A stretch of 64,000 bases of DNA from a virus, in the IMG/VR virus record IMGVR_UViG_3300042288_000581, positions 21,677 to 85,676 of that record; one strand, written 5' to 3'. How positions within the stretch are numbered: position 1 is the stretch's first letter; each line of letters opens with the position of its first letter. The position numbers and the translations under genes are program-made. Under the pieces are notes generated by a model that was not told the DNA's origin, searched no databases, and was given only the letters and a program-made list of their open reading frames with translations. This document shows positions 10,669-63,643 of this stretch, piece after piece.

Positions 10669-10697
10669 TTGACAAAATAAAATATCTTTGATAAGAT
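10669..10697 (+). promoter_or_regulatory. early promoter overlapping the hli terminator
   Basis: TTGACA (10669-10674), 17 nt, TAAGAT (10692-10697). The -10 runs into the left arm of the terminator hairpin, so polymerase starting here would transcribe only its right half and could pass on to the oxygenase gene. Confidence 0.65.
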
Positions 10698-10726
10698 GTA
10701 AGCAATTGCTTACATCTTTTTTTTAA
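10695..10726 (+). terminator. intrinsic terminator of the hli operon
   Basis: A 12-bp perfect inverted repeat (AGATGTAAGCAA / TTGCTTACATCT, 10695-10718) followed by a run of T. The next gene starts at the end of the T-run. Confidence 0.9.
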
Positions 10727-11331
10727 TGTCAGACTCATATGTTAATCAAAATTATGTCATAGATGAGTTGTTTCCTTGTCCAATATTGATAGTTGATGAT
10801 TGCTGTAATCATCTTTTGGCAGATTTGGAAACATCTTGTAAAAAAGAAGTTGAAGAATATTCATTTAAAAACAATATTCTCTACGTTGATTCAACTCATA
10901 CTTCATTTAAAAAATTAAATACATATCCATTTGATTCTTTGGGAGAATATATAAACCATTATTCTTTAATAATGCTTGGTGCTCAAGGATATAATATCAA
11001 TGATGATACAAAATTAAGTATTGATATGTGGTGTAATGTATGTGAAAAAGAAAGTTTCCTATTTCCACACACACATTCAGGATCTATGTTATCTGGAGTT
11101 TTTTATGTAAAAACAAGTCAAGAAGATTCTATAATATTTTACAATACACAAAAATTGATTAGCAATATTTATAAAGCAAATAGTCCCACTAGAATTTCTT
11201 GTTCACAGACAACTTATAAATGTTTTCCTGGAACATTATTGATTTGGAATAGTGATTTATTACATGGAAATCCTAGAAGAGGATCGGAAGAAGAAAAAAT
11301 CGCAATATCTTTTAATATATCATTCAACTAA
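10726..11331 (+). CDS. 2OG-Fe(II) oxygenase family protein
   Basis: 201 residues. The HxH in FPHTHSGSMLSGVFYV (about residues 122-138) and the later histidine in LLHGNPRRGSEEEKIAISFN give the Fe(II) triad and 2-oxoglutarate-binding Arg region of this superfamily; phage members resemble the putative oxygenases near virion genes. The substrate is unknown. AT-rich unlike the hli genes before it, which suggests separate acquisition. The start lacks a ribosome site and lies at the end of the terminator T-run. Confidence 0.8.
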   Translation: MSDSYVNQNYVIDELFPCPILIVDDCCNHLLADLETSCKKEVEEYSFKNNILYVDSTHTSFKKLNTYPFDSLGEYINHYSLIMLGAQGYNINDDTKLSIDMWCNVCEKESFLFPHTHSGSMLSGVFYVKTSQEDSIIFYNTQKLISNIYKANSPTRISCSQTTYKCFPGTLLIWNSDLLHGNPRRGSEEEKIAISFNISFN

Positions 11332-11334
11332 TTA

Positions 11335-13605
11335 TTATTTTGATTGATAAATTATTCTTCGTGGAAATGTCAACCCAGATGAAGGTCTTGGTGTTGCCGT
11401 AGCATCTGGAGTAACGTAACCTGTAGTTTTTCTTAGTGTTTTTGGGAATAAAACATATGGTTGAGTTCTAGCATCAACCGCAGTGTAAGATCTATCAATC
11501 TGAGAATATCTTAGGGTGATAGTTCCTGTCATGATAGAAGAGTTTTGTGAAATATAATAATAAGTTCCAGGAGCAACGTTAGTGGTGTCCCAAATGATAC
11601 TGCCTGATGTTGCTCCATTATTTGTAATGCCAGTTGTCACTACGTTACCAGTTCCAATAATTTGTAATGTTTTAATCCAAAATGGTTGACCAGGAGTGTT
11701 TACCGAAAACTCCATGATCTCACCAACTCTCACATCAAAGTTTTGATTGGATCCATTTCTCCCAAACAATCTATCTGCGTTTGATGTAAATTCATACGAA
11801 GTTGACCCTGTATTTGTAACATAATGTTTGTGATAGAAACCAGGAAACGTTCTTGAATAATTATAATTTGGTCCTGTATAACCATAGTATCTTAATAAAT
11901 TTAGAAAGTCTGATTGTTTAAATCTTGGATATCTTTCTGCCAGACAAGCAATCATACCAGCTACTTGTGGTGATGCCATGCTTGTCCCACTCAACACATT
12001 CAAAGAGAACGAATTGTTTCTTGGATCTTTCAGTGTTTGTGATGTGTATACTGAAGACAGAATATTTGTTCCTGCTGCCCACACATCACATGTGTTGCCA
12101 TGGGATGAAGAGTTTGCTTTGAATTCTACCCACACTTGTTCGGAATCTGGTGATGTTGTGCTCATTTTTAGGGCAGCAACTGAATCTATATTTCCTACGG
12201 TTATTCCTGCTGGAACAGCAGCGGGATCTGTTCCTCTCTTATAAAAATCTATAAATCCAGTATAGACTTGGGTGCTGTTTTGACTTTGGTAATTATAAAC
12301 TAACGAATTATTATAATCTGGGTGCGTAGAACTCACACTGGTATCACCGTAATTTCCAGCAGCGGATACAAAAACAATACCATTTGATATCGCATCTTCA
12401 ATATCTGCTTGATGCGATATTCCACCTCTAATTGGCAACCAAACACACCATTGTGATGATTGTGTTGGGTAGTTATTATATATGAAGGTGGTATATAATC
12501 CTCCCCAAAGACCATACGTTCCTCTTAGGATATTTAAATCTGATTGAGTATTTGTAAAAGAAACGTTTATATTTGATCCTCTATATCTAACTTGCGTTAT
12601 TTGAGTGATGGGAAGTAGTGTAACATAACCATAACTGTGGTTGGTTATGGTTGGATTTCTTCTTCCAGTTGCTGGATTAATTGGTTTGTTTAAATGAAAT
12701 GCTCTTAGCAGATCATACATTAATGATGGAGGAACCTTTGTTGTGCTGTAAGCGTACAGATTATAAATGTTTGCTTTTCTTGCCCACCCCAATCTATTGC
12801 CAACACAAGTTCCAGCTACGTGTGTTCCGTGATCTCCATAGTCTCCATAATTATATGTTGTTGGAACGGATGCGTCTACTACATCGTTATCAATATTCTG
12901 AACAGCATTTCTGTATAAACTCCACCAGTTAATTTGATTAACTCTACTGCCACCAGTGCCATCAGAATTTACTGCGAACTCAGGATGATTGATAGGAATT
13001 TCATCATCAACAATAACCACGTCAACGTTCTCTCCATTGAAAGGTATCGTTGTTGAAGCTGTTGCGTTTCCAGTTCTATCACTACCCCAAGTAGAATACC
13101 TTGCTTCGCCTAAACTATTTAAAAAATCAGTTCCTGCGTCATCTAAATCCAAAACTGCTCCTGGATTTGAGTGTGCTAATAACCCCCAGTTCAAATCAGT
13201 GTTTGAAAACCCAGCAGACTTTCTTGCGAACACTCCATTGTTTATGAATGTTGATCCAAGGGGAACTGCTACAACTCCCTTTTCTTCCATCGTAAGATCC
13301 ACATCCCATACCCTGGGATCTTCTTTTAATTTTTCTGCTTCTTCTTTAGTCAGTAGATAGTGTGTATTTCTACTCAAGGGTCTTTTGTTTGTTCTTTCTA
13401 CTGATCTATCAGGAACATAATCGTTGCCAGTAGCATCTCTCATCTCATCATAAAAGTTATCTAAGTCATCAAAGTTGTGTAGAGTTACAACATATTCTCT
13501 TAACGCATCACTATCATCTTGTTCTTTTGTGTGACAAGAAATAGTATTTGTGTTTAAATTTGACTCTCGTGACCCTCTTTCTAAGAGAATATCTTCTAAG
13601 TTCAT
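11335..13605 (-). CDS. subtilisin-like serine protease with cupredoxin-like C-terminal domain
   Basis: 756 residues. Residues 37-105 resemble the I9 propeptide inhibitor. The S8 protease domain (about 130-575) keeps the triad: D200 (VVIVDDEIPINHP), H259 (GDHGTHVAG), S542 (GTSMASPQVAG), with N418 in SAAGN as oxyanion residue. About 625-700 is a cupredoxin-like fold (YYYISQN...MTGTITL) whose Cys and His ligands are absent. No signal peptide, so it probably acts in the virion or in the lysate. The fibre gene is the neighbour upstream, one base away, and the two should share its late promoter. Possible roles: maturation of the fibre or digestion of host surface protein; both inferred. Confidence 0.9.
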   Translation of the reverse strand: MNLEDILLERGSRESNLNTNTISCHTKEQDDSDALREYVVTLHNFDDLDNFYDEMRDATGNDYVPDRSVERTNKRPLSRNTHYLLTKEEAEKLKEDPRVWDVDLTMEEKGVVAVPLGSTFINNGVFARKSAGFSNTDLNWGLLAHSNPGAVLDLDDAGTDFLNSLGEARYSTWGSDRTGNATASTTIPFNGENVDVVIVDDEIPINHPEFAVNSDGTGGSRVNQINWWSLYRNAVQNIDNDVVDASVPTTYNYGDYGDHGTHVAGTCVGNRLGWARKANIYNLYAYSTTKVPPSLMYDLLRAFHLNKPINPATGRRNPTITNHSYGYVTLLPITQITQVRYRGSNINVSFTNTQSDLNILRGTYGLWGGLYTTFIYNNYPTQSSQWCVWLPIRGGISHQADIEDAISNGIVFVSAAGNYGDTSVSSTHPDYNNSLVYNYQSQNSTQVYTGFIDFYKRGTDPAAVPAGITVGNIDSVAALKMSTTSPDSEQVWVEFKANSSSHGNTCDVWAAGTNILSSVYTSQTLKDPRNNSFSLNVLSGTSMASPQVAGMIACLAERYPRFKQSDFLNLLRYYGYTGPNYNYSRTFPGFYHKHYVTNTGSTSYEFTSNADRLFGRNGSNQNFDVRVGEIMEFSVNTPGQPFWIKTLQIIGTGNVVTTGITNNGATSGSIIWDTTNVAPGTYYYISQNSSIMTGTITLRYSQIDRSYTAVDARTQPYVLFPKTLRKTTGYVTPDATATPRPSSGLTFPRRIIYQSK

Positions 13606-13606
13606 A

Positions 13607-15724
13607 TTAGGTTTCTAATTGTAGAACTGTTAACGTTACTGTAATTGCTGTGGTTGAACCACTTTTATTGACAACTTTAGCGTAGATATTCGTGGATGGT
13701 ATTGTGTCATTATTCCACCCAATTGTGCCAGGAGTTATGATTGTTGTTTGAGCTGCCGTGTGAATAACTTCAGCGATTACACCTGCTCCTGGTGCTGGAT
13801 CTGTATTTTCTGAACGTGAAGCATCGGATAATCTACTGCCAGTATCGGAATATAATGTTACCCATGCTGCTTCTGAAGTTTGAATCTTCAGTAAAGCATA
13901 AGACTTAAATCCGACAATTGTAATGTTTTCAGATGCTCCGTTTACTATTGAAGAAGTGCTGGCAAATACTGTTGATCTTCCGCCAGCAGAATCAGCTGGA
14001 GACCAGTTAGTTCCATTCCATTTTAGTGTTTGTCCAACTTGTGGTGTGCCAATTTGTACATCACTCAGAGCGTCAATTGATAATGAACCAATACCAGTCA
14101 GATAACTACTTAAGTTGGGTGGTGTAAAGGTAAATACACCATTTGTACTGTTGTATGATAAACTGCCGCCACCAGAAGCAGTTGCAGTTGATACAGATAC
14201 TCCATCTCTTCCAATAAAGTTATCGGTGACGTTTACCCAGCGAATTCCATTGTAACGAATGGTTTGATTAGATATTGGTGATGTTATTGTTACATCTGTT
14301 AGAGCACTGAGGGCAGTAACTAATGTTGGTCTATTTGTCAGATCATTATAAGAACCAGTGATAGCAACAGTTGATAGTGTTGGTCTATTCAATAAGTCGT
14401 TATATGAACCAGTTGCTGATACAGTGGATAGTGTTGGGCGATTTGCTAAATCAAAATAATCTCCTGTTGTGGCAACGGTTGATAGTGATGGTCTGTTTAA
14501 GATTCTCGACACACCAGTATTAGCATTCCAATCAGAAGGAACTTGTGCTGCTGGGATAACTGGTTGATCTACAAGGTCATTGTATGATGCTGAGATAGCA
14601 ACGGATGCTAGGCTTGGTCTGTTTGCCAAATCAGCGTATTCACCGCTGGTTGCTACGGTTGCTAAACTTGGTCTATTCGTTAAATCATTGTATGAACCAG
14701 ATGTTGCTACAGTAGCAAGAGTTGGTTTATTTAAGATGCGTGTAACACCTGTCGTTGCTGACCAATCAGATGGAACTTGTGCTGCTGGAATTGTTGGTGT
14801 ATTTGAGAGATCATTGTATGAACCAGATGTTGCTACAGCAGATAGTGTGGGTTTGTTTAAAATTTGAGCAACACCAGTTGTAGCATTCCAATCAGCATTT
14901 GTTTCACTTGTCAAATAAACAGAAAGATTTGGTGGGGTGAACGTGAATGTGCCATTATTATTATCATATGACAATGAACCACCACCAACCGCTGCGTTTG
15001 TAGTTACCGAAAGGTCTGTTAGTGTGATACCACCACCACCTCCACCACCAGTTAAATCAGCTGCTGGTGCCCATACAGTACCATTCCATTTTAGAACTTG
15101 ACCAACTGAAGGTGTGCCATCCACATCAGCGAGATCATTGATGAGAGATGGAATGAAAGGTTTGAATGTCAGGTCATTGTAAGAACTAGATGTCGCTACT
15201 GTAGCAAGTGCTGGTCTGTTTGATAAATCATTATACGATAAGCTTGCGTTTACAAACTGTGTGCCATTGTAACGTAGAGTTTGACCAGTGATTACACCAC
15301 CGATTTGAACATCAGTTAGACTATCTAAGTTTGTTACATTACTTCCGCCACCACCAATTACGGTGAGAGTTCCATCAGGTGCTATACTTAGCGTTGAACC
15401 ATCTGGTTTTACTGCTCCAGCGATTGTTGTTGTTGCTGTTGGAACAGAAAAATTTAGTTTTCCATTTGCGTCATCATAAGTTACTGATATATTAGTTTCT
15501 GTGTTTACAGAAACCATGTCACCAATAATATCTTGGACTTGTTCCGTTGATAATGGTGCCTGCCATGATACAGTTGAACCAGTTGAAGTTAGAACATAAC
15601 CAGCCAATCCTGTACTGGTTCCATCAAAAATTCCAGTTTGTGCGAGATTTAAACTATCACCTGTTTTAACTTCTTCTAATTGTCTTGTAACAGCGTTGGC
15701 AATTAATGGGTATCTATTTGCCAT
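13607..15724 (-). CDS. repeat-rich tail fibre protein
   Basis: 705 residues. About ten copies of an 18-residue unit of the type SYNDLTNRPSLATVATSG occupy roughly residues 165-485. Several LTDVQIG..GQTLRYNGTQW units surround them and there are Gly-rich turns, all typical of trimeric fibre shafts. The C-terminal domain (FKSYALLKIQTSEAAWVTLY and onward) is one I associate with cyanophage fibre proteins and is probably the receptor-facing end. A TATAAATA late promoter is 33 nt upstream. It is transcribed with the protease. Confidence 0.85.
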   Translation of the reverse strand: MANRYPLIANAVTRQLEEVKTGDSLNLAQTGIFDGTSTGLAGYVLTSTGSTVSWQAPLSTEQVQDIIGDMVSVNTETNISVTYDDANGKLNFSVPTATTTIAGAVKPDGSTLSIAPDGTLTVIGGGGSNVTNLDSLTDVQIGGVITGQTLRYNGTQFVNASLSYNDLSNRPALATVATSSSYNDLTFKPFIPSLINDLADVDGTPSVGQVLKWNGTVWAPAADLTGGGGGGGITLTDLSVTTNAAVGGGSLSYDNNNGTFTFTPPNLSVYLTSETNADWNATTGVAQILNKPTLSAVATSGSYNDLSNTPTIPAAQVPSDWSATTGVTRILNKPTLATVATSGSYNDLTNRPSLATVATSGEYADLANRPSLASVAISASYNDLVDQPVIPAAQVPSDWNANTGVSRILNRPSLSTVATTGDYFDLANRPTLSTVSATGSYNDLLNRPTLSTVAITGSYNDLTNRPTLVTALSALTDVTITSPISNQTIRYNGIRWVNVTDNFIGRDGVSVSTATASGGGSLSYNSTNGVFTFTPPNLSSYLTGIGSLSIDALSDVQIGTPQVGQTLKWNGTNWSPADSAGGRSTVFASTSSIVNGASENITIVGFKSYALLKIQTSEAAWVTLYSDTGSRLSDASRSENTDPAPGAGVIAEVIHTAAQTTIITPGTIGWNNDTIPSTNIYAKVVNKSGSTTAITVTLTVLQLET

Positions 15725-15756: not shown

Positions 15757-15764
15757 TATTTATA
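15757..15764 (-). promoter_or_regulatory. T4-type late promoter, minus strand
   Basis: TATAAATA on the minus strand, 33 nt before the fibre start. It would drive the fibre and protease genes late in infection. Confidence 0.75.
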
Positions 15765-15783
15765 AATGGTGGGACTGGGGGGC

Positions 15784-15817
15784 TTGACAGGGGCGGGGAA
15801 CCGTGCTACTATAAATA
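15784..15817 (+). promoter_or_regulatory. psbA promoter, early and late elements overlapped
   Basis: TTGACA (15784-15789), 17 nt, TACTAT (15807-15812). The -10 overlaps a perfect late octamer TATAAATA (15810-15817). So psbA can be read by host-type polymerase early and by the late factor afterwards. Confidence 0.75.
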
Positions 15818-58090: not shown

Positions 58091-61000
58091 ATGGCTATTA
58101 CCATTAATTCTCTTACGCCAACTAATCCAACAGTTTTTGCTGGTGGATCATTAACATTTTCTGTTTCTGCCACCTCAAATATATCAGGAGCTACTCTAGA
58201 TTATCTTTGGCAAACTAGTAGTAGTTCTACTGGACCATGGTTAACACTGCCTGATAATGGTGCCAATAGTATTACTTTAACGAATATTCCAATTACAGCT
58301 AGTGGTGATTATATTAGAGTTGCTATATCTGAAAGCACTCCATATTCTCCAGTAACATATAATTATACTGTTACTGGAACTGGTTCTTCTGCTTGGACTT
58401 TTACTGGATCTGCGAGTGGTAATAATCCATCTCTTACTGCTACTGTTGGTGATACTTTAAGATTTGCTGTAAGTTCTACCAATAGTAATACTTTTTATAT
58501 TAAAACTGCTGCTGTGGGGGGAACTGGAAGTACGGTATCTACAGGAATAACAAATAATGGTACTCAGAATAATACCGTTGTTTGGAATACTGCTGGCGCT
58601 GCTGCTGGAACTTATTATTATATCTCAGCAGAAAACCCAAATAATATGGTTGGAGTTATTACATTAGCTCCAGCAACGACTACTTTGGTGAGCACTGTCA
58701 ATAGTGATGAAGTTCCTGGATTCCAACGTCAGTTGACAGTAAATGCGCCGCCATTATTATCTGTTTCTGATCAAAATCTGTCATCTTATACTGTAGCTAC
58801 TGGTTCTAGTCTATCATTTACAGTTGAAGCTACTACAAATAGTAGTTTGTCTAATTTTATTAATACTACCTCTGCTAATGTTACGCCAATAGTTTTTCAG
58901 TGGCAACAGAGTACAGATGGTGGAACTACGTGGACTAATATTACAGCAGGAACAAACATAGCAATAACAGATACGTTACTTAGTTTTGCAACTACTCCAG
59001 TACAATATTATAAACGATCTGTTCTTACTCTTTCGAATATTGCATTCACTCAAAATAATAGAAGGTATAGGTGTCAGGTTACATATACTAAAGATGGTGT
59101 TACTGCTTCCAATAGCCCAGTAAGTACAAATGCTATAACTTTATTGGTTAATCCACAAATACTTATTTCTAAACAACCAGGGACTGGAACTGATACAACT
59201 AGTACAGTATCATATGTTACAAATATTCCTAGTAGTGGTAATGCCACTCTTAGTGTAACTTCTTTCACAACTGCTCCAACCACAATATCGTATTCATGGG
59301 AGTGGAGGTGGAGTGATCAAACAACTTATACTCCTATATTGTCTTCAAACCCTCAACTATCAACAACTCCATTTAGATTGGTAACAGGAACAAATGGAAC
59401 GAGTGCTATTCTTCAATTAGAAAGAGTTAAATTATTAGCTGGTTCTAGTAGCAATTTATTGTATATACGAGTAAGTATAAGTGGATTATCTGGTGAACAA
59501 ACTATCACTTCTAACGACGCTGGACTATATTTGACACAAACTGCTGTTATTGATAGTCCAACTGATGATTTTGCGATTGAAGATAGATATGGTCCAGTTC
59601 CAAATCGTTCTTCGTATCAAGAAACTCAGCAAACAATAACTGTGTCAGCTTCTGTTGATGTTAGTATTGATACTGGCGTCAGAGGACCAATAACTTTGGG
59701 ATGGCAAAGAAAATATGCTGGGGAGACTGGATGGACTGATGTTGGAACTACTAAAAATGATGCTGGCACGGATCTACCAGCATCAACAAGCACTGATCCT
59801 AGATCGTCTGGGTCGCATACATTTACAACACCACCATTGAGAAGAAGTACAGATCATCTATCTCAATATAGAATGTATGTTACATATCTGAGTGGTGGTA
59901 ATTCAGTTACTACTTATTCTGATCCATGTACTATTTCTGTGTATAGAACTGCTTATATTGATAATGATCCAGGAAATTCTGAAGTATTTCAAAACAGTAT
60001 TGCTTCTTTTAGTGTTACTGCTTCTCCATCTAGCGGAACAGACATAGCGTATAAATGGGAATATAGTTTAAATGGGACAACCTGGAGTGATATTTCAAAT
60101 AATCCTCCATTGTTAAATGTCACTTCTATAACATATAATTCTTATACCGCAACAGTTACTTGTTCTTCCGCTCATGGATTAGTTTCTGGTGATAGAGTTT
60201 ATGTTGCTGGAGTAACACCTTTAACTTACAATGGAGTTTGGACAGTATTATCCACTGGTCTTACATCAACTCAATTTACATATACCATGTTTAACATACC
60301 AACAACAAATGGTATTGGACCATTCACGGTTCATAGATCACCTAGGTATGTTGGTATTAATACTAGTTCTTTGTTAATATATGTTGCTAGTTCGAGCATT
60401 CTTGAAAGATATTATAGATGTGTTCTCACCGTTCCTGATTCGATTGGAACAGTAGAAACTGGATATGGGTCATTAATTATTAGATCCGACACATTCCTGG
60501 GAATTTCTTCAATTAATGATAGACAAGTACAAGAATATGAAAGCGTTACGTGGACTGTAAATGCTACTTCTGCGAGCTTAAGTACTCCCGCATATCAGTG
60601 GCAAAAAAGTACAAATTATACTTCCGCAAATCCTAATGCTGCCACTTGGAGTGATATTGTTGGTGCAAATTCTCCTACTTTTACAATATCTTCAGTTCTC
60701 TCTGCCAATGCGGGGTTCTATAGATGTCGTGTGATTAGTGCGGGATCTACAATTAATTTTAGTAACGTTGCTAGATTACAAGTTTTACCAGTAACTATAA
60801 ACATTACAACAAATACGCCATCTTCGCTTGCTATTGAAGAAGATTTTGCTGGAACAACATTATCTGTGGTTGCGTCTAGTACTACTCCAGGAACGATACA
60901 ATATCAATGGCAATTAAAACCAGCTGGTTCTTCTACGTGGTCTGACGCTCCTGTGGGATTTAATCAAACGAACACTGTAGGTGAAAATTATAGAATTCCA

Positions 61001-63643
61001 TCTCTTTCTATATCTGATAGTGGCAATGTATATCGTTGTAGATTAACTATATCTGGTAATCCAAATACTTACTACACGAATGAAACTACAGTTAGAGTTG
61101 ATAGAGTATTTAACTATTTTGCCGACGCAGCAACTAAAAATATTACTCAGGGAAGTACTCTCATTCTAGATATATCGCCATTTTATACAGGAACAGATAC
61201 AGCAACGTATAGATGGCAGGCTAGTATAACTGGTCCAACTGGAACTTATTTTAATTTATCGGATGGTATTAATGGACCATTATATAATATTAACATAAAC
61301 GGAGCAACTAGTTCACAAATATCATTATATAATATTCCATCTTCTTTATCTAACGCTTATTTTAGATGTGTTGTTACTTTTAATCAAGTTAAAAAAGTAA
61401 AGTATTATAGAAGTAGTCCAATAACTTTAATATATCCTACTCCAGTTAATACTTTTAATACGGAAATTATACGAATTGTAGTAACAACAGCTATTATAGA
61501 ATCACCATCATATAATGATCAACGTCAAAAGGTTGGAGCTGCTATTGGTACTGTTATTTGTGTGCCCAAACCAGCTGATTATATTGAAGATCCATCTGCC
61601 ATAACAGATGATGCCGATAGGTGGAAAATTGCGTTAACTGGTCAAATGTCTTCTGGTAGTCCAGCTCAAGGTGTGTCTAACACAACAAGACCTTATGGAC
61701 CAAATGATAGATTTCCTGGATTTATTGAAATGCGAGGTCAATTATTAAAAGCACAGGATTTTCCCGATTTAGCAAGAATTCTCGGAAATACTTACGGTGG
61801 AAATATTCCATCAACCAGACAATATCCAAATTATCAAAGTACAGATGTCTTTAGGTTACCATGTCCATATGGCAAGTATTTGTTGGGAACAGGAAATGTA
61901 GATAATAATAGATCATCACCTTCTGTCGTACCTTTATATGCCCCAGATGGATCTTCTGGCGGTCAGATAGGAAATGCTGGGTCTATGGGAGGAGAGTATA
62001 ATTTTGAAAAATATGATCAGTTGCCTCCAGGAAGTCCCAATATTAGTGGCGAAACAGATGGTACTGCTCCTACAGTTTCTCCATATCTGTTTACTGTTGG
62101 GACATTCAGAACTGATGGGTGGGAAAATTGTACAGTGGAAGTTGATGCTCAATTTACAGGAACTACAACTTATCAGATATCTGATTCTGCTGGTATTGCT
62201 CAAGTATCTTTGAGTGGTCCTCCTCCACATACACATAGAATTAATTCAATTGTATTTTCTGATACTAATAGAGTTTATGGTGGTAGTGGGAATTGTGGCG
62301 CTAATCAATCTATATCTGCTGTTGGAACTATACGTCAAGGACCAGAGGGAATTATTAATAATACCAGAAATCCTTCTAGAACACACAGTCATGCGCTATC
62401 ATTCGATCCGAATGATTCCACGCTTGGTGAAGGAACTGGAGAAACGATAACTCCTCCATCAGGTGGGGAATCTGGATTCTCTTATACAAGTCCAGGCAAC
62501 TATGTTTTTACTGTTCCTTCCACAGTAAATAGTTTTACTTTTACTTTATATTCTGCTTCTGGTGGAGGTGGTGGTAATGACGCAGCGAATCCTGGTTCTG
62601 CGGGTGGAGCTGGAGCTAGAGTTACTGGCACTTGTACAAATATACCTGGAGGCAGTAGTATAAGAGTGATAATTCCTTTTGCTGGTGGCGGTGGTAGTGG
62701 ATGTGTATCAAATGCTGGTGCTGGAAATGGTGGTGGATCTCAAGGTACTGGATTTGGTGGAGGATCTGGTGGTAGATCTGGTGGACAAGGTTGCTCGGGT
62801 GGTGGTGGTGGCGGCGGCGGCGCTGCTTTCATGTATTGTGAAACTGTGGGTTCTGGACCAAATCCAAATGGTTTACAAAGAGGAACAATATTGGTAATTG
62901 TTGGAGGCGGTGGCGGTGGTGGCGGTAGTGGATATCATAATAATAATACTAGACCAAGATTTCCTGGTGGAGCTGCTTCAACAAGTTGGGCATCCTCAAC
63001 AATAAATTCATCATCATATTATACAAATCAATCCACACTAACTTTTAGAGCATATGATGCAAATGGAGCCAATCCAGTATCTGGTAGAATAGGAGCTGAT
63101 AGAGGTGCCAACGCTGATGGTGGCGGTGGCGGCGGCGGTGGTGGAGGATTTACTGGTGGATCTGGCGGTGGTAATGCGGGTGGCGATGTTAATGCTCCAG
63201 GAGGAAGTGGAGGAACTTCTGCGTACAATTCTTCTTTCTTTTCGGCAGCTCCTGGTCTATCAACTGGTTATTCTGGTGGCGCAGCTGGTGGGGCCAACAA
63301 TAATGGTTCGACGGGATCAGCAACAATTACTGTTATATTCAGCGGTGGTGGCACTACAGGATCAAACCCATCTACTGGTGGTGTAAATAGTGCTGATCAT
63401 AATGGAAATTGGGGTGTTTTGAGGGGATCTGCCAACCAATTTTTGAGCGAATCAATTAATCATCACATTACTACTGGCACTGCTCAAAATCTTGGGATTA
63501 CTCTTCCCTCAGGAACTATAACAATGAGTACTAGATCAAGAAGTACGTTTGATAATTATTTGAATTTTTATATGAGGAATAATGAACCAATTCCTATACA
63601 ACAACCATATTTTAGATTAAAATATCTAATCAAAGCTTTCTAA
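58091..63643 (+). CDS. giant Ig-domain adhesin with collar and Gly-rich tip
   Basis: 1850 residues. About ten Ig-like domains (pattern YxWQxSxxG..W..I......Y.I..v....YRC.V) fill about 1-1130. Residues near 100-200 hold a cupredoxin-like domain (TYYYISAENPNNMVGVITL) also found in the subtilisin-like protease. A beta module of the HGLxxGxxVYVAG type is at about 690. A collar domain (FIEMRGQLLKAQDFPDLARILGNTYGG) is near 1210. About 1460-1760 is a Gly-rich domain (FTVPSTVNSFTFTLYSASGG and poly-Gly runs), like the receptor-binding tips of gp38-type adhesins. Ends KYLIKAF. Probable host-range determinant. Confidence 0.85.
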   Translation: MAITINSLTPTNPTVFAGGSLTFSVSATSNISGATLDYLWQTSSSSTGPWLTLPDNGANSITLTNIPITASGDYIRVAISESTPYSPVTYNYTVTGTGSSAWTFTGSASGNNPSLTATVGDTLRFAVSSTNSNTFYIKTAAVGGTGSTVSTGITNNGTQNNTVVWNTAGAAAGTYYYISAENPNNMVGVITLAPATTTLVSTVNSDEVPGFQRQLTVNAPPLLSVSDQNLSSYTVATGSSLSFTVEATTNSSLSNFINTTSANVTPIVFQWQQSTDGGTTWTNITAGTNIAITDTLLSFATTPVQYYKRSVLTLSNIAFTQNNRRYRCQVTYTKDGVTASNSPVSTNAITLLVNPQILISKQPGTGTDTTSTVSYVTNIPSSGNATLSVTSFTTAPTTISYSWEWRWSDQTTYTPILSSNPQLSTTPFRLVTGTNGTSAILQLERVKLLAGSSSNLLYIRVSISGLSGEQTITSNDAGLYLTQTAVIDSPTDDFAIEDRYGPVPNRSSYQETQQTITVSASVDVSIDTGVRGPITLGWQRKYAGETGWTDVGTTKNDAGTDLPASTSTDPRSSGSHTFTTPPLRRSTDHLSQYRMYVTYLSGGNSVTTYSDPCTISVYRTAYIDNDPGNSEVFQNSIASFSVTASPSSGTDIAYKWEYSLNGTTWSDISNNPPLLNVTSITYNSYTATVTCSSAHGLVSGDRVYVAGVTPLTYNGVWTVLSTGLTSTQFTYTMFNIPTTNGIGPFTVHRSPRYVGINTSSLLIYVASSSILERYYRCVLTVPDSIGTVETGYGSLIIRSDTFLGISSINDRQVQEYESVTWTVNATSASLSTPAYQWQKSTNYTSANPNAATWSDIVGANSPTFTISSVLSANAGFYRCRVISAGSTINFSNVARLQVLPVTINITTNTPSSLAIEEDFAGTTLSVVASSTTPGTIQYQWQLKPAGSSTWSDAPVGFNQTNTVGENYRIPSLSISDSGNVYRCRLTISGNPNTYYTNETTVRVDRVFNYFADAATKNITQGSTLILDISPFYTGTDTATYRWQASITGPTGTYFNLSDGINGPLYNININGATSSQISLYNIPSSLSNAYFRCVVTFNQVKKVKYYRSSPITLIYPTPVNTFNTEIIRIVVTTAIIESPSYNDQRQKVGAAIGTVICVPKPADYIEDPSAITDDADRWKIALTGQMSSGSPAQGVSNTTRPYGPNDRFPGFIEMRGQLLKAQDFPDLARILGNTYGGNIPSTRQYPNYQSTDVFRLPCPYGKYLLGTGNVDNNRSSPSVVPLYAPDGSSGGQIGNAGSMGGEYNFEKYDQLPPGSPNISGETDGTAPTVSPYLFTVGTFRTDGWENCTVEVDAQFTGTTTYQISDSAGIAQVSLSGPPPHTHRINSIVFSDTNRVYGGSGNCGANQSISAVGTIRQGPEGIINNTRNPSRTHSHALSFDPNDSTLGEGTGETITPPSGGESGFSYTSPGNYVFTVPSTVNSFTFTLYSASGGGGGNDAANPGSAGGAGARVTGTCTNIPGGSSIRVIIPFAGGGGSGCVSNAGAGNGGGSQGTGFGGGSGGRSGGQGCSGGGGGGGGAAFMYCETVGSGPNPNGLQRGTILVIVGGGGGGGGSGYHNNNTRPRFPGGAASTSWASSTINSSSYYTNQSTLTFRAYDANGANPVSGRIGADRGANADGGGGGGGGGGFTGGSGGGNAGGDVNAPGGSGGTSAYNSSFFSAAPGLSTGYSGGAAGGANNNGSTGSATITVIFSGGGTTGSNPSTGGVNSADHNGNWGVLRGSANQFLSESINHHITTGTAQNLGITLPSGTITMSTRSRSTFDNYLNFYMRNNEPIPIQQPYFRLKYLIKAF

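Follow-up and report, generated by a model that had tools for sequence, protein, structure and literature searches.

A subtilisin-like protease paired with a tail fibre gene in a cyanobacterial T4-like virus: a candidate exchangeable enzyme of the fibre tip

Why should a tailed marine virus of cyanobacteria encode a subtilisin-like protease directly behind a tail fibre gene? The window, the whole 64,000-nt stretch of DNA that we analysed, sits within an 85.7-kb IMG/VR record (IMGVR_UViG_3300042288_000581), and psbA, a high-light-inducible protein and T4-type baseplate and fibre genes mark its source as a cyanobacterial T4-like virus. The protease is encoded by an ATG-initiated open reading frame (11335..13605 including the stop, 756 aa) on the minus strand, a strand assignment absent from the preliminary description of this DNA. 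Its product matched Pfam Peptidase_S8 (PF00082) with E=2.2e-22 and 80.1 bits, against a cut-off of 21.8, and also PHROG 9158 (E=9e-112) and PHROG 15006, annotated as a tail fiber protein. An Rfam search around the locus detected no RNA element.

Alignment, motifs, the Pfam match and an AlphaFold2 model place the catalytic domain at residues ~190-577 (11875..13038, minus strand). The Asp/His/Ser triad and the oxyanion Asn occur in the D-H-N-S order of S8 peptidases, as D200 (13006-13008), H259 (12829-12831), N418 (12352-12354) and S542 (11980-11982), all on the minus strand and within the subtilase motifs VVIVDDE, GDHGTHVAG, SAAGNYG and SGTSMASP, respectively. The intact catalytic residues listed in the preliminary description are thus confirmed. 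An alignment with relatives, taken from viral contigs and from named phages, showed all four conserved in every one of the 113 unique sequences that span the four columns; 33 further relatives do not span them all, and alignment of the Asp in the S-CAM1 member is doubtful. The dN/dS ratio of the catalytic region, measured against three relatives, was ~0.09-0.13. This combination of invariant residues and low dN/dS argues that the subtilase match is not due to chance and, at the level of sequence, makes loss of activity very unlikely, in support of the earlier suggestion that the enzyme is probably active. Binding at phage tips often relies on reused enzyme folds, and by that precedent the protein could be catalytically inactive, its subtilase fold retained for binding alone; the 113 conserved catalytic sets and the low dN/dS make this very improbable.

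An I9-like inhibitor region had also been proposed ahead of the triad. The Pfam I9 model found no match in the subtilase at E values up to 1, so this proposal did not hold as a family match; it did hold as a predicted fold. In the AlphaFold2 model, built on an 87-sequence alignment (mean pLDDT 76, with ~90 over most of residues 190-577), residues 36-104 form a beta-alpha-beta-beta-alpha-beta arrangement with pLDDT ~90, preceding the catalytic domain in the manner of pro-subtilisins. The best Foldseek matches in the PDB were themselves subtilisins with pro-domains: ProN-Tk-SP (1.2e-15), unautoprocessed pro-subtilisin E (3.6e-15) and fervidolysin. We therefore refer to residues ~35-110 (13276..13503, minus strand), which include a conserved DPRV motif, as an I9-like rather than an I9 pro-domain. 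The 34 residues that precede it are variable (25-65% identity) and missing in many relatives. Subtilases with I9 pro-domains process themselves, as is established for subtilisin, and the same would be expected of the viral enzyme. With subtilisin E, Tk-SP and fervidolysin it has in common the pro-domain and catalytic fold, the D/H/N/S residues and a predicted zymogen form, at ~12-20% identity over structural alignments. Unlike these bacterial proteins, it is the product of a phage late gene coupled to a fibre, has no signal peptide that could be seen by eye, and adds a cupredoxin-like module and a short tag at its C-terminus.

The partner gene (13607..15724, minus strand) encodes a 705-aa fibre protein matching PHROG 9627 and PHROG 9729 (tail fiber protein), and its stop codon is separated from the subtilase ATG by 1 nt. 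Its N-terminal ~57 aa (15554..15724, minus strand), 47-49% identical to virion structural proteins of S-H9-1 and S-CAM4, are a probable virion anchor. A pattern match to the T4-type late promoter box, TATAAATA, lies at 15757..15764 on the minus strand, ~40 nt upstream of the fibre ATG, and is conserved in three close relatives, which bears out the late promoter described earlier for this gene. Of 111 fibre genes across relatives, 55 have the box within 120 nt upstream, against the 6.4 that shuffled sequences would give, but it precedes just 2 of 134 subtilase genes. The pair is therefore probably read as one late transcript and expressed as one late unit. A function at the fibre or at the surface of the cell, as suggested previously, is also plausible. 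The same description had raised prohead maturation; late expression is all that would favour a prohead protease, a role that is hardly credible for an enzyme partnered with a fibre and showing no link to heads; moreover, S-SCSM1, a related phage, encodes its prohead protease as another gene product, gp040.

The pairing extends well beyond this virus, being conserved across more than 100 related viral sequences. In nearly all relatives the upstream gene retains the ~122-aa C-terminal domain (residues 583-704 of the window fibre; 13613..13978, minus strand), while the remainder varies widely in length and sequence. When loci were picked by subtilase similarity alone, this domain lay directly upstream in 55 of 56 unique loci, and the sole exception was the second of two tandem subtilases. 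An independent collection, the GTDB genomes, gave the domain in 8 of the 8 loci with enough upstream sequence. The gap between the paired genes was exactly 1 nt in 86 of 139 pairs. Conversely, 126 of 137 genes with the fibre domain were followed by a subtilase, a figure biased by a domain profile built mostly from paired loci. A profile of the domain did not match solved structures.

Coupling this tight is also what would be seen if the subtilase were a tail maturation protease, processing itself, the fibre encoded next to it or another component of the tail as the particle is put together, so that a released tip or a trimmed fibre is what matters. We regard this as unlikely but as the main rival to an entry protease at the fibre tip. 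The self-processing of subtilases with I9 pro-domains fits it, as do the further domains of some relatives that a cut could release: the L005 relative is a subtilase with an extension, and L006:9575-12694, a close relative with 73% identity across the region in common, has an insertion of ~290 aa between the pro-domain and the catalytic domain, with the alpha/beta-hydrolase signatures GHSQG and GGHDAF and weak database matches. However, conservation of the partner is confined to its end domain, so a shared cleavage site elsewhere in the fibre is not apparent. Moreover, the subtilase slot also accepts proteins that are not proteases, as described below, and such replacements would not be tolerated if maturation required the enzyme.

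Evidence for an exchangeable position behind the fibre gene came from the end of the protein. The subtilase terminates in the tag RPSSGLTFPR (residues 740-749; 11359..11388, minus strand), recognised by pattern match; the usual end of these subtilases is R-P-x-[ST]-G-x-x-[YFW]-P-R with a few more residues after it. The pattern had 80 unique occurrences in the open reading frames examined, compared with 0.4 in shuffled ones, and in 67 of the 80 it lay within 15 aa of the C-terminus. It is common to subtilases, to a kumamolisin-like sedolisin in the same slot, and to small proteins that end non-protease cassettes. The sedolisin (L060:7986-9260; S53, kumamolisin E=8.8e-31) was initially read as a non-subtilase protein with the tag, until the kumamolisin match identified it. 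Sedolisins of this type use an E/D/S catalytic set; the window protein is instead a D/H/N/S subtilase.

Where no subtilase stands behind the fibre domain, the place is usually taken by a different family, ending in ..GIAFCARTT, and in 7 of 7 cases its gene overlapped a small one (77-93 aa) whose product has the same tag at its end (L022:3581-6117, L031:2359-4571, L083, L090, L091, L099 and L108). The only functional assignment in this alternative cassette was one connector-like PHROG match. Sf-CH1b agrees with its pattern, and S-BM3 does so in a looser form. In the siphovirus P-SS2 the fibre domain ends gp087 and the tag ends gp090 (RPTSGFIYPRRI); the domain-bearing genes of the siphoviruses S-CRES2 and S-CBS2 have no tagged neighbour.

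Six complete subtilases had no fibre domain directly upstream; the tag was missing from five of them, and the remaining one occupies the second position in a tandem pair. Neither the domain upstream nor the tag was present for the subtilases of P-SSM2, S-SCSM1 (gp144), S-T4 and Sf-CH8; these follow genes whose C-termini resemble one another but not the fibre domain (..TPxTGxxGxTTYRxxR..). In about 14 paired subtilases the C-terminus is instead a cupredoxin-like module and the tag is missing, so the tag cannot be the sole attachment. The simplest reading of these sequence patterns would be a partner-specific mounting.

The cupredoxin-like module of the window protein occupies residues 589-700 (11506..11841, minus strand). 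The family profile A4 matched nitrite reductase, rusticyanin and plastocyanin (E 1e-4 to 1e-3) as well as amicyanin, and 15 of 22 members matched Pfam Copper-bind. Many relatives retain the complete set of copper ligands, H..C..H..M, on proteins that may belong to the tail. Most ligand positions are lost in the window protein, which has Q, S, S and M and has therefore probably lost its copper. The same module occurs at 58349-58669 on the plus strand, in a fibre-like open reading frame of 1850 aa (58091-63643) of the same genome. The preliminary description mentioned neither this module nor the conserved pairing, the tag or the replacement of the protease by other proteins.

Published virion proteomes allowed the location of homologues to be assessed. 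In P-SS2, gp086-gp090 were detected in purified virions by mass spectrometry with averages of 45, 11, 17.5, 6 and 4 peptides, respectively (PMC2784084); since gp087 bears the domain and gp090 the tag, relatives of the cassette are virion proteins. For S-SCSM1, 45 virion proteins are reported from mass spectrometry, with the NMNAT named among those detected (PMC9602691), and by our count the GenBank record labels 47 genes 'virion protein'. This label is attached to the non-structural NMNAT and withheld from several structural homologues, and we took it to mark detection by mass spectrometry. It is carried by gp144, which contains the subtilase, by gp145, the partner encoded upstream, and by gp141 and gp140 of the alternative cassette; gp144 is of the untagged type and has a different partner from that in the window cassette. 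Mass spectrometry of S-CREM1 virions found only 14 proteins, and its main text does not name the peptidase/subtilase. A fold search of virus models also matched the S-SCSM1 'baseplate wedge' and the S-CAM1 'proximal tail fiber'. By analogy with these homologues, we infer that the window subtilase is located in the virion.

These data bear on whether the enzyme might instead act inside the infected cell, degrading host proteins or aiding lysis as a late product that is not part of the tail. The missing signal peptide and late expression are compatible with such a role, and carry-over into virion preparations could account for detection there. Against it, the subtilase nearly always adjoins genes encoding fibre ends, has modules in common with fibres (at 58349-58669 of the window and in the P-SSM2 tail spike), and has cassette relatives that are virion proteins. 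We consider an intracellular enzyme improbable.

An intact, self-inhibited enzyme paired behind a fibre gene in more than 100 viral sequences is therefore probably an exchangeable enzyme tip. Our preferred reading, to which we assign a probability slightly above one half (about 0.55), is a virion-borne protease at the fibre tip that is made as a self-inhibited zymogen and cuts host surface proteins at entry. The late two-gene tail cassette would first supply the fibre, anchored in the virion by its N-terminus and offering its ~122-aa C-terminal domain as a mounting point, and second the subtilisin-type protease. In the host cytoplasm, the I9-like pro-domain would fold and inhibit the protease, which would remove the pro-domain itself, and the cupredoxin-like module and RPxSGxxYPR tag would help the particle to retain the enzyme. 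When the virus meets its next cyanobacterial cell, the protease at the tip may cleave proteins of the cell surface, whether S-layer proteins, outer-membrane proteins or giant cell-surface proteins, and so aid adsorption or open access. Docking on the fibre domain, self-processing and the choice of cell-surface proteins as substrate are steps that we only infer. The arrangement resembles the polysaccharide-degrading depolymerases of tail fibres and tailspikes in placing a proposed enzyme at the receptor-binding tip, but the enzyme is a protease rather than a glycan lyase or hydrolase, and it has its own gene, behind that of the fibre, instead of being part of the fibre polypeptide.

More tentatively, and at rather less than even odds, the cassette may represent a general mounting system for marine phage tail tips. 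The fibre domain would be the socket and the RPxSGxxYPR tag or the cupredoxin-like module the plug; the warheads (S8 and S53 enzymes, proteases with inserted alpha/beta-hydrolase-like domains and non-protease tips) would be swapped among myo- and siphoviruses. If these proposals are correct, the tail fibres of many marine phages bear proteases as well as sugar-cutting enzymes, and one standard attachment point serves to swap them. Functions would then be given to many cyanophage tail genes now labelled 'hypothetical', attention would turn to the cell-surface proteins of marine cyanobacteria as targets or barriers, and tail-tip exchange would be directly testable in a laboratory cyanophage.

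The family itself is not rare in cyanomyoviruses: it matched 47 phage records, mostly annotated as hypothetical or tail, and more than 560 IMG/VR stretches. To our knowledge such subtilases are absent from T4 itself, so the view that a late-gene subtilase is unusual in T4-like tails stands for T4 and fails for the T4-like cyanophages. The cyanophage subtilases of PHROG 9158, the 'subtilisin-like serine proteases' of S-H9-1 and S-H38 and the S-CREM1 peptidase belong to the same family at ~27-41% identity to the window protein, with the same gene arrangement where examined, and an S8 peptidase, T4-GC518, was already listed for P-HM1/P-HM2 (Sullivan et al. 2010, PMC3037559). Cyanophage subtilases were thus known before, mostly as hypothetical proteins. 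The papers searched held no account of them as tail-tip or fibre-paired proteins, and the open-access literature searched no description of the fibre-protease pairing or the C-terminal tag; the conserved cassette, the tag and the exchange with sedolisin or non-protease tips therefore appear to be new. Full-length relatives in genome contigs were limited to nine marine MAG or assembly contigs. A cellular origin was considered for these and rejected: the phage cassette is present in each of the eight whose upstream sequence is long enough to show it, so they are probably phage contigs.

Some loci carry tandem subtilase genes, two in L010:3370-7966 and three in L011:5290-12514, in which the downstream copies lack the tag. 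A terminator-like element, an 11-bp strong hairpin followed by a T run, lies at 10693-10718 on the plus strand, just before a 2OG-Fe(II) oxygenase gene (10726-11331). Finally, TATAAATA boxes diverge within 15757-15817, one on the minus strand for the fibre-subtilase pair and one on the plus strand directly before psbA, suggesting that a late promoter may drive psbA.
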